Source of the DNA: Polaribacter filamentus
GTDB taxonomy: Bacteria > Bacteroidota > Bacteroidia > Flavobacteriales > Flavobacteriaceae
Assembly: GCF_002943715.1 (NCBI RefSeq)
Contig: NZ_MQUA01000013.1
Location: forward strand, 2,679,501-2,743,500
Direction of reading: 5' to 3'
Length of the DNA: 64,000 nucleotides
Part shown: positions 5,796 to 9,239 of the stretch, piece after piece
How positions within the stretch are numbered: position 1 is the first letter of the stretch
Layout: the number at the start of each line of letters is the position of its first letter
Program-made: the position numbers and the translations under genes
Notes under the pieces: generated by a model
The model's input: the letters and a program-made list of their open reading frames with translations, nothing else
The model's database searches: none
What the model was told of the DNA's origin: nothing

Positions 5796-8700
5796 CTAGC
5801 TTACTATGTTTACGATTTTTCCAGGAACAATAATTACTTTTTTAGGAGCTTTACCTTCTAGTTGTGCAATCGTTTTTTCGTTTTCTAAAACTGCTTTTTC
5901 TATTTCTTCTTTTGATAAATCTAACGGAAGCTCTAGCGTAAAACGCATTTTTCCGTTAAAAGAAATAGGATAATTTTTAGCGCTTTCTACCAAATGTTTT
6001 GCATCAAAAACAGGGAAATCAACTGTTGAAATCGATTTTTTATTTCCTAACTGACTCCATAACTCTTCTGAAATATGAGGTGCATATGGCGATAATAAAA
6101 CCAATAAAGGTTCTAAAATTTCACGTTTGTTACAATTTAAAGCAGTTAAACCGTTTACAGCAATCATAAAGGTAGAAACAGACGTATTAAAAGAGAAATT
6201 CTCGATATCTTCTTCTACTTTTTTAATTGTTTTGTGTAAAACTTTTAATTCTTCTGATGTTGCTTTTTCTTCTGAAACTTCAAAAACTTCTTCGTTATAA
6301 TATAGCTTCCACAATTTCTTCAAGAAAGAAGAAACTCCAGAAATACCTGCCGTATTCCAAGGTTTTGCTTGCTCTAAAGGACCTAAAAACATCTCAAATA
6401 AACGCAAACTGTCAGCACCATATTGAGTTACAATATCATCAGGATTTACAACATTATATTTAGACTTAGACATTTTTTCTACTTCACGAGAAACTTCGAA
6501 AGCACCATCTTCTTCTATAATAAATTCTGCATCTTTAAATTCTGATCTCCAATTTTTAAACGCTTCTAAATCTAATTCATCCGAAGAATTTACATAAGAA
6601 ACATCCGCATGAATTGAACGCACTTTTAAAACTTCTTTATTCCATAAAATAGATTTAAAGCCTAGTTTTTTTGCAAGCTCTAAAAGAGTTCCGTATAAAT
6701 TCTTCACTTTTAAAAGATCCGCCTCAGCTACGTGATATTTTTCTATAATTCCATCATCATTTATTGTAGGTTCATTCCAGAAATCATAATAAAGAATGCT
6801 GTTTTTATTGATAACATCAATAACTGATTTACTAAAAAGTATTTTTGTATCCGTAGTACTAATTAAATCGTCGTTTTCAGCGATAAAACTGCCTTCAAAA
6901 ATAGACACGAAAGCAGATGTTCCCAAAATCATTCCTTGGTTAATCAGTTTTTTCGCAAACTCATCTACAGGCACAATTCCTTTATCAAACAAGAATTTTT
7001 GCCAAAAACGTGCGTATAATAAATGGCCAGTTGCATGTTCAGAACCTCCAATATATAAATCTACTTCTTTCCAATATTCTAAAGATTCTTCGCTTGCAAA
7101 TTCGGTTGAATTTGTAGCATCCATATATCTATTAAAATACCAAGAACTTCCTGCCCAACCTGGCATTGTATTTAATTCTAAAGGAAAAACTGTTTTGTTT
7201 TTCAACTTCTCATTAGAAACTACTTTCTTTCCACGAGAATCCCACGCCCATTCTGTTGCATTTCCTAAAGGTGGCTTCCCATCTTCCGTTGGTAAGTATT
7301 TTTCAACTTCCGGCAACACAATTGGCAAGTGTTTTTCGTCAATCATTTGTGGCATTCCATCTTTATAATATACCGGAAAAGGTTCTCCCCAATAACGTTG
7401 TCTGCTAAAAACAGCATCACGCAAACGGTAATTTATTTTTCCGTAACCAAAACCACGTTTCTCCATTTCAAAAATGGCTAATTTTAATGCTTTCTTATAT
7501 TTTAATCCTGATAAAAAATCTGAATTTGCAATTTTCGTTCCGTCTTTATCAGTATGCGCAGCTTCCGAAATATCAACTCCTTCAAAAATATTCGGAATCG
7601 GAATATTAAAGTGTTTTGCGAAATCGTAATCACGCTGATCACCACAAGGAACTGCCATAACTGCGCCTGTTCCGTAGTTTGCTAAGACGTAATCTCCAAT
7701 CCAAATTTGTACTTTCTCACCAGAAAAAGGGTGAATTGCATACGCACCAGTAAACGCGCCAGAAATGGTTTTTACATCTGCCATTCTATCACGCTCAGAA
7801 CGTTTTGCAGTTGCTGTAATATAATTTTGAACGGCTGCTTTTTGTGCATCCGTAGTAATTTTTGCAACTAATTCATGTTCTGGAGCTAATGTCATAAAAC
7901 TTACTCCGAAGATAGTATCTGGTCTTGTTGTAAAAACTTCAATTTTATAAGAATTCTCTACTGCGACCGGAGTAGCATCGTCTTTACTTTCTAACTTTTC
8001 AATTGGTTTTGAAAACTGAATTGTATTGTTTATTTTAGCAACAACAGCCAGTACGTTATCAATAACTTCTTGATTGGTAAAACGAAGAAAATTAAATCCT
8101 TCACTTGTAAAAAACTCTGATCTTGCGGCTTCCTCTTCTTTGCCAGAAAACTCAACAATTATATTTTTTGCTAAACACACATAATCCACTAAAAATGTAC
8201 CAATTGTATATTTTTTTCTGAATTTTGCTGCGCCTTTTTTGTTTTTTAATTCATCCCAAAGAATTGCTTCTGCTTTTGATAAATTTAAACGCAATTCTTT
8301 TAAAGCTTCTAATTCTTTGTACGATAATTTTACTTCGGATGTTAATTTTGCAGCACCTGAATCTACTTTAAAAGAAACCATTGCACCTTGACTTCTACCA
8401 ATCCAATTTCTTTGAGATTCTTTCAATGGTTGTGGCCAATCAATCGTTTCTAAACCATCTAACAAACGCTGCGCGTATGCAGAAATTCGCATCGACCATT
8501 GTGTCATCTTTTTTCTGACAACAGGATAACCGCCACGTTCGGAAACTCCGTTTACAATTTCATCATTTGCTAAAACGGTTCCTAAATCAGGACACCAATT
8601 TACTTCTGTATCCGATAAAAAAGTTAAACGATATTGTAATAAAAGTTCTTCTTGTTCTTTGGTTGAAAACGCATTCCATTCATCCGAAGAAAAAGAACTA

Positions 8701-9239
8701 ATTTCTTCATCACAAACGGCATTTACAGTTGTATTTCCTTCCTTTTTAAAAACAGAAATTAAAGTAGAAATATCTTCTGCTTTATCTGTGTCTTTATTAT
8801 ACCAAGAATTGAATAATTGGATAAAAATCCATTGCGTCCATTTATAATATTCCGGACTCGAAGTACGCACTTCTCTACTCCAATCGAAAGAAAAACCAAT
8901 TTGATCTAATTGTCTTCTGTATGTTTTAATATTTTCTTCGGTTGTTTGCGCTGGATGTTGCCCTGTTTGAATTGCATATTGTTCTGCTGGCAAACCAAAA
9001 GAATCATATCCTTGCGGATGCAATACATTAAAACCTTTATGACGTTTGTAACGCGCATAGATATCACTTGCAATATAGCCTAAAGGATGGCCAACATGTA
9101 AACCTGCTCCTGACGGATAAGGAAACATATCTAACACATAATATTTAGGTTTCTCCGATTCATTATTGGCTTTAAAAGTTTGGTTTTTTGCCCAAAATTC
9201 CTGCCATTTCTTTTCAATTTCTAAGTGATTGTATTGCAT
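5796..9239 (-). CDS. leuS: leucyl-tRNA synthetase with large inserts
   Basis: Class I synthetase that charges tRNA-Leu. HIGH motif at residues 48-51 (GLHVGHPLGY), the editing-domain segment FTTRPDTIFG (436-445) with VMAVPCGDQRDYDF (527-540), and KMSKS at 922-926 are intact, so both synthesis and editing look possible. At 1147 residues it is some 200 longer than other Bacteroidota LeuRS proteins. About 134 residues (295-428) sit in the editing domain between AMVSFKVDS and YKIEVFTTRP and resemble DUF559. A second extra stretch of about 80 residues (roughly 785-868) precedes KMSKS, inside a region that is already expanded in Bacteroidota. The reading frame is unbroken. Confidence 0.95.
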   Translation of the reverse strand: MQYNHLEIEKKWQEFWAKNQTFKANNESEKPKYYVLDMFPYPSGAGLHVGHPLGYIASDIYARYKRHKGFNVLHPQGYDSFGLPAEQYAIQTGQHPAQTTEENIKTYRRQLDQIGFSFDWSREVRTSSPEYYKWTQWIFIQLFNSWYNKDTDKAEDISTLISVFKKEGNTTVNAVCDEEISSFSSDEWNAFSTKEQEELLLQYRLTFLSDTEVNWCPDLGTVLANDEIVNGVSERGGYPVVRKKMTQWSMRISAYAQRLLDGLETIDWPQPLKESQRNWIGRSQGAMVSFKVDSGAAKLTSEVKLSYKELEALKELRLNLSKAEAILWDELKNKKGAAKFRKKYTIGTFLVDYVCLAKNIIVEFSGKEEEAARSEFFTSEGFNFLRFTNQEVIDNVLAVVAKINNTIQFSKPIEKLESKDDATPVAVENSYKIEVFTTRPDTIFGVSFMTLAPEHELVAKITTDAQKAAVQNYITATAKRSERDRMADVKTISGAFTGAYAIHPFSGEKVQIWIGDYVLANYGTGAVMAVPCGDQRDYDFAKHFNIPIPNIFEGVDISEAAHTDKDGTKIANSDFLSGLKYKKALKLAIFEMEKRGFGYGKINYRLRDAVFSRQRYWGEPFPVYYKDGMPQMIDEKHLPIVLPEVEKYLPTEDGKPPLGNATEWAWDSRGKKVVSNEKLKNKTVFPLELNTMPGWAGSSWYFNRYMDATNSTEFASEESLEYWKEVDLYIGGSEHATGHLLYARFWQKFLFDKGIVPVDEFAKKLINQGMILGTSAFVSIFEGSFIAENDDLISTTDTKILFSKSVIDVINKNSILYYDFWNEPTINDDGIIEKYHVAEADLLKVKNLYGTLLELAKKLGFKSILWNKEVLKVRSIHADVSYVNSSDELDLEAFKNWRSEFKDAEFIIEEDGAFEVSREVEKMSKSKYNVVNPDDIVTQYGADSLRLFEMFLGPLEQAKPWNTAGISGVSSFLKKLWKLYYNEEVFEVSEEKATSEELKVLHKTIKKVEEDIENFSFNTSVSTFMIAVNGLTALNCNKREILEPLLVLLSPYAPHISEELWSQLGNKKSISTVDFPVFDAKHLVESAKNYPISFNGKMRFTLELPLDLSKEEIEKAVLENEKTIAQLEGKAPKKVIIVPGKIVNIVS
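7956..8354 (-). other. DUF559 (Vsr-like nuclease fold) insert within leuS
   Basis: LeuRS residues 296-428. The core (310-405) reads like DUF559: LRLNLSKAEAILWDEL, FRKKYTIGTFLVDY, IIVEFSG and FNFLRFTNQEVIDN match the family order. Asp352 and Glu363 line up with the usual acidic residues, but the normal IDGxQH tail is changed (FSGKEE), so nuclease activity is doubtful. No intein splice motifs are seen. The insert lies in a strand-to-strand loop at the start of the CP1 editing domain. Confidence 0.75.

Follow-up and report, generated by a model that had tools for sequence, protein, structure and literature searches.

An in-frame DUF559 domain in the LeuRS editing domain of Polaribacter as the probable disarmed descendant of a nuclease-carrying mobile element

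Inteins occupy conserved protein sites in frame, carry a nuclease and splice out of the host protein, and I-Bth0305I is a homing endonuclease that belongs to an intron. A Vsr-superfamily signature has been reported among phage intron-encoded nucleases (PMC11878797). Rickettsia palindromic elements (RPEs) are short palindromic elements of about 150 bp that lie in frame in unrelated protein genes, and their peptide is reported to have no known enzyme activity (PMC10969869). In Caulobacter, the SOS response of a cytosine methyltransferase mutant depends on VsrA, a DUF559 / Vsr-like protein, for which the authors propose a role in mismatch repair and not in mobility (PMC12907096). VsrA is a DUF559-domain protein like the insert described here, but it stands alone. 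Searches of the open-access literature, judged by titles and the beginnings of abstracts, turned up no paper that presents DUF559 as a mobile element inserted in frame or links DUF559 to such insertions.

The window analysed here is a stretch of 64,000 nucleotides from Polaribacter filamentus (contig NZ_MQUA01000013.1), to which all positions refer. Its leuS gene encodes a leucyl-tRNA synthetase (LeuRS) with a DUF559 domain inside the editing domain. In the following feature list and throughout, K-type denotes the degenerate leuS insert lineage to which the window copy belongs, and intact leuS copies are those defined by the DGxxH pattern.

5796..9239, minus strand: leuS, leucyl-tRNA synthetase, 1147 aa; open reading frame with Pfam matches to the LeuRS editing domain, tRNA-synt_1 and Anticodon_1
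7950..8357, minus strand: whole insert, residues 295-430 of LeuRS; from sequence coordinates and the alignment to 1h3n
8019..8303, minus strand: DUF559 domain, residues 313-407; PF04480 match and predicted Vsr-like fold
8184..8186, minus strand: Asp352, kept in 52/52 K-type copies
8130..8156, minus strand: residues 362-370, where VEFSGKEEE replaces (V/I)E(V/I)DGxxH; Glu363 and Lys367 remain, and Asp and His are gone
8304..8357, minus strand: N-terminal linker, residues 295-312; location of the 5' hairpin in intact copies, with a hairpin in 0/52 K-type copies
7950..8018, minus strand: C-terminal linker, residues 408-430; location of the 3' hairpin in intact copies, variable among relatives, with a hairpin in 0/52 K-type copies
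7914..7931, minus strand: TTRPDT motif, residues 437-442, a few residues past the insert; invariant in a 29-sequence alignment

The insert adds 136 residues between AMVSFKVDS and YKIEVFTTRP, and the match of T. thermophilus LeuRS (PDB 1h3n) to the window LeuRS ends at residue 238 and restarts at 240. The initial annotation had located it correctly, whereas the limits it gave (7956-8354, residues 295-428, about 134 residues) are slightly too narrow. Its assignment to DUF559 and the Pfam check that it proposed both hold: PF04480 matches the insert with 64.3 bits against a cut-off of 20.6 (E 1.1e-17), as it matches 33/33 domains of the DUF559 alignment. For residues 300-412, AlphaFold2 supplied with a 33-sequence alignment predicts a Vsr-like fold with a pLDDT of 86.9. 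In the PDB, Foldseek ranks 3hrl first for this model (E 1.9e-5), an entry described as a putative endonuclease-like protein, and the catalytic domain of I-Bth0305I fourth (E 4.1e-3). The VIA-align Z scores are 13.5 for 3hrl, 10.5 for I-Bth0305I (3r3p) and 8.5 for Vsr (1cw0). By its predicted fold, the insert resembles the nuclease of a known family of homing endonucleases. Protist mitoribosomal proteins from Toxoplasma and Tetrahymena (9i05, 9g6k, 6z1p) also match the fold of this dead domain with Z scores of 8.3-8.6; we presume that these matches are perhaps RAP domains, that is, nuclease folds turned to RNA binding. The full-length LeuRS model is too poor to place the domain relative to the editing pocket (pLDDT 60.4, pTM 0.34, 408/1147 residues below 50).

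The closest solved structure, the DUF559 protein NGO0050 (3hrl), aligns over 91 residues with 34% identity (phmmer E 6.1e-10); unlike the insert, it is a separate chain of 104 residues outside any host enzyme. The likeness to I-Bth0305I is confined to the catalytic-domain fold, over 85 residues. Unlike I-Bth0305I and unlike inteins, the DUF559 insert showed no splicing element, no Hint/splicing (intein) family being found in LeuRS by a Pfam scan at E 0.001, and it stays in the host protein as linkers plus domain. Like RPEs, the elements of this kind place palindromic sequence in frame in unrelated protein genes, as seen in the intact relatives and not in the window copy, which has no hairpins. 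Unlike the small, enzyme-free RPEs, they encode a nuclease-fold domain, keep most catalytic residues and occupy the same sites across genera.

In the window copy, FSGKEEE stands in for (V/I)DGxxH, several residues are deleted, and Tyr takes the place of the RRQH His, so that the catalytic residues of both motifs, which profile membership does not need, are missing. The whole K-type lineage shares this state: in the alignment of 33 domains it lacks the RRQH His and the DGxxH Asp, and the DGxxH His is deleted. Among 52 non-redundant K-type copies, the RRQH His is Tyr in 52/52, the equivalent of Asp352 is present in 52/52, that of Glu363 in 51/52, and the Lys four residues later in 52/52. The earlier statements that Asp352 and Glu363 remain and that the rest of the active site is replaced are therefore borne out, and judged by its sequence the window domain is probably inactive. 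By contrast, the DGxxH-type motif is intact in 49/52 non-K leuS copies, 8/9 RecG copies and 8/8 MetH copies of the domain tree; within the intact class its conservation is circular, and the fair figure for leuS is that of the non-K copies.

Loss of the active site has not released the K-type domain from constraint. By the Nei-Gojobori method, with only pairs of unsaturated synonymous divergence used, the median dN/dS is 0.155 for the K-type core and 0.144 for the LeuRS body (823/1326 pairs, 52 sequences), and 0.095 for the intact core and 0.136 for the body (40/1176 pairs, 49 sequences). With all pairs included, saturated ones too, the median dN is 0.145 in the K-type core against 0.138 in the body, and 0.304 in the intact core against 0.219 in the body. 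Both kinds of insert are under purifying selection, for the intact kind on the evidence of 40 close pairs. The constraint on the K-type domain is about as strong as that on LeuRS itself, and the domain is not freely decaying.

The leuS site is occupied in some relatives and empty in others, a trait of homing endonucleases. A search of 146 sampled genomes of the genus with residues 241-460 as query (220 residues, insert plus flanks) gave 69 degenerate alleles, the window's included, 12 intact alleles, 58 genomes without DUF559 at the site, where the LeuRS match ends ahead of the DUF559 domain, 2 undecided cases and 5 without a match. Identity to the query is 68-83% for the degenerate alleles of the 68 other genomes and 57-61% for the intact ones. 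Sequences were examined for 37 degenerate alleles including the window's, all 12 intact alleles and 21 alleles without DUF559, 2 of which hold an unrelated short insert. The closest named LeuRS, from Polaribacter glomeratus (L221), is 95% identical to that of the window. Chance and an assembly artefact are both ruled out: the same form occurs in 68 other genomes, in P. glomeratus and in Polaribacter sp. BM10 (L211), whose chromosome is complete. In a family sample of 299 genomes, LeuRS was found in 299/299 and DUF559 in 143, with at least 17 intact and at least 5 degenerate leuS inserts in the subset of genomes whose sequences were inspected. A frame-broken leuS insert (G112, L107/L131) from a 64%-complete genome was left out.

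Classification of 220 LeuRS sequences, a sample enriched for occupied alleles, gave 78 empty, 70 degenerate and 59 intact alleles and 13 with another, short insert, which departs from the case that would have spoken against the initial annotation, namely an unrelated insert in all Bacteroidota LeuRS. In empty alleles, the site consists of roughly 31 residues of plain sequence. On a FastTree phylogeny of LeuRS bodies with the insert excluded (207 of the 220 sequences were long enough, and 189 remained after removal of identical ones), the presence or absence of DUF559 requires at least 33 changes and a division into five states at least 47. The three classes of allele (degenerate, intact and empty) are intermingled on this tree, although it has many weak branches and recombination among leuS alleles is possible. 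Other short in-frame repeats sit at the window's leuS site in L117, L121, L122, L126, L127, L128 and L280 (peptides such as TLSAVEGS, CHAEPVEAS and LNQVQHD), and the loop therefore seems to be a general landing place for repeats.

DUF559 also occurs in frame in many unrelated host proteins. The window's own genome carries a second such domain in RecG, where it separates the DEAD domain from the C-terminal helicase domain (G000:C13:1359030-1359338, L001); its active site is degenerate, and the other 8 RecG copies are intact. Pfam matches place further in-frame copies in MetH (two in one protein), IleRS, HsdR, HsdM, an Eco57I-type enzyme, a methylmalonyl-CoA mutase fusion, a second site of LeuRS, two UvrD-type helicases, and type ISP and other methyltransferases; in HemD, histidinol dehydrogenase and a glutamine amidotransferase the domain is terminal. 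In LeuRS, RecG, IleRS, MetH and one UvrD-type protein (L304), it splits a conserved domain or separates partner domains. Intact inserts occupy fixed sites, ahead of TTRPDT in leuS, ATVKGDVHDIG in metH and TATPIPRT in recG, and also sites in ileS and others; some close relatives have them and others lack them. The sampling of this host survey favours in-frame cases, and out-of-frame insertions would not appear as long open frames. In five HemD-like proteins (L007, L019, L025, L050, L051), DUF559 is fused in frame at the N-terminus with hairpin sequence between.

Intact copies carry GC-rich hairpins near their ends, which are translated through in frame into peptides such as PKGE and PPSGxRG. 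The hairpin test covered the 5' and 3' flanks within 130 bp of the core, with hairpin definitions chosen after examples had been seen, and 0-1.6% of control windows were positive. Hairpins at the 5' end, the 3' end and both ends, respectively, were found in 41/49, 37/49 and 32 intact leuS copies, 7/9, 6/9 and 5 RecG copies, 6/8, 5/8 and 4 MetH copies, 5/7, 5/7 and 4 copies in other hosts of the family, and 16/20, 14/20 and 11 copies of a phylum sample; the IleRS copy has none at the 5' end (0/1) and one at the 3' end (1/1). No hairpin flanks were found in the 52 K-type leuS copies (0/52) or in 3 other degenerate leuS copies (0/3). In a stricter inverted-repeat test, the copies that beat all controls were 21/49 intact leuS, 5/8 MetH and 1/7 in other hosts, and 0/1 IleRS, 0/9 RecG, 0/3 other degenerate and 0/52 K-type copies. 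Because this test is weak, as the RecG result indicates, it is the hairpin test that carries the argument on the flanks. In one MetH (L052), two DUF559 copies share a unit of about 418 bp, counted on the alignment, that starts with AGCCCCCC and ends with GGGGGGCT, mutually inverted. The two cores share 82% identity, and the few bases visible beside the units are dissimilar.

We consider it probable that the ancestor of the insert was a mobile element with a nuclease, of a kind that inserts in frame into protein genes and remains unspliced in the product, and the best reading of the window copy is that of a disarmed, retained descendant of such an element. The idea of a selfish element lodged in an essential gene, raised by the initial annotation, now has independent evidence; the widespread in-frame kind, with hairpin-flanked, catalytically intact relatives in many host genes, and the recG copy had escaped that annotation. 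The nuclease of the element would drive its movement or maintenance: it would cut target DNA, act on the hairpin ends, or both, and a new copy would go in during repair. An insertion in an essential gene would survive only when it is in frame and in a tolerant loop. In the K-type leuS lineage of Polaribacter and its relatives, catalysis and hairpins would have been lost and the domain then adopted by LeuRS.

A more specific form of this explanation, not exclusive of it, is that DUF559 is a true homing endonuclease that cuts insert-less alleles and is copied in by break repair, in a cycle of empty, active and dead states. This is possible but somewhat doubtful. The fold match to the I-Bth0305I catalytic domain favours it, as does the coexistence of the three states within one genus. 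Site-faithful lineages speak for it as well. A tree of 118 domains, with the K-type copies thinned to 21/52, needs 10 host-label changes when K-type, intact and other leuS copies are separate labels. The 8 MetH copies form one clade and the 9 RecG copies another, RecG together with IleRS, and both clades branch among leuS copies, although some inner nodes are weak; 17/20 stand-alone genes form a further clade. Because copies cluster by host site, the lineages mostly stay at their own site and rarely jump. In a tree of 126 tips that includes the phylum sample, with the K-type copies thinned to 6, MetH-site copies from other, distant families join those of this family with a support of 97; copies in restriction-modification genes and HemD are placed elsewhere, and host labels need 23 changes and the stand-alone or in-frame state 5.

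Against homing, flanking host sequence gives no sign of co-conversion: synonymous divergence is not reduced near the leuS site, in a set where most pairs are old and weak signals would escape. Pairs whose insert is clearly closer than the body (26 intact, 260 K-type) only somewhat outnumber the reverse (15 and 200), and the K-type domain is constrained rather than decaying. The divergences of insert and body are correlated (r 0.47 for intact, 0.57 for K-type copies), which is expected of largely vertical inheritance and counts against recent movement. We infer mobility from the patchy distribution and the shared ends; no movement was observed in these sequences, and homing is not demonstrated by them.

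The same correlation favours ordinary domain accretion, in which an ancestral gain of DUF559 served LeuRS, for example in tRNA contact, and was followed by many losses, partly through exchange with empty leuS alleles, the other hosts having gained related domains independently. The purifying selection on the K-type core and the single K-type clade (support 100) would also fit. However, this explanation is unlikely in view of the catalytic motif that mostly stays intact in non-K leuS, RecG and MetH copies alike, hosts that need no DNA nuclease for their known role, the hairpin flanks common to different hosts, the numerous unrelated host proteins and the one MetH with two copies having shared ends.

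REP repeats are moved by RAYT transposases, and the hairpin repeats could here be the mobile part, moved by another enzyme with DUF559 as a passenger between them. In L110 and L282, the leuS site holds a hairpin-derived peptide but no full DUF559 core; L282 also has a piece like the last DUF559 helix, and these sequences are possible remnants of the element. Such hairpins without the core, the other short repeats at the same leuS site and the hairpins that border stand-alone DUF559 genes would suit this explanation. In 20 stand-alone regions, taken non-randomly from the stronger matches and two of them from one genome, hairpin density is 5.83 per kb within 250 bp of the gene, 1.23 at 250-500 bp and 0.12-0.56 farther away; 20/20 have a hairpin within 300 bp and 14/20 have them on both sides. 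Nevertheless, we regard the passenger role as improbable: at least 3 hairpins of one pattern occur in 30/143 genomes with DUF559 and in 0/156 without, a comparison uncorrected for phylogeny that partly counts DUF559's own flanks, and most catalytic residues are preserved. Nothing seen supports a part in phage defence or phage conflict, also suggested at the outset, and PADLOC gave no match for the two domains scanned, that of the window and one intact domain.

Returning to the in-frame mobile element as the preferred explanation, we put forward tentatively that it represents a distinct class of mobile element: a nuclease between hairpins that lacks its own start and stop codons in the in-frame form, is permanent in conserved host proteins at a few fixed sites across Bacteroidota and, in one lineage, was disarmed and taken over as a functional part of the LeuRS editing domain. 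Adoption is the least certain step. Because its purifying selection is close to that of LeuRS, the dead K-type domain probably now serves the enzyme structurally or by contacting RNA. Dead nuclease folds that serve RNA binding are known, for example the RAP domain, and contact with tRNA is therefore a natural guess for the K-type domain, by analogy. If this picture is true, the element solves more simply, by landing in tolerant loops, what inteins solve by splicing. It would also explain odd DUF559 'fusions' in genome annotation and give many DUF559 proteins a role, and the series of empty, active, dead and adopted states in one gene would be a natural case of a selfish domain joining an essential enzyme.

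Two other places in leuS also vary. At a second site, just ahead of the (L/T)ELNTMPGWAGSS motif, short in-frame hairpin-like peptides (SSPSGRLGG and its kin) are present in L008, L021, L030 and L115, and a whole DUF559 insert lies at this site in one genome (L309). The stretch of the window at 6540-6908 (leuS residues about 778-900), after NQGMILGTSAFV, differs strongly in both length and sequence between the LeuRS of different Flavobacteriaceae and is seemingly another lineage-specific insert.
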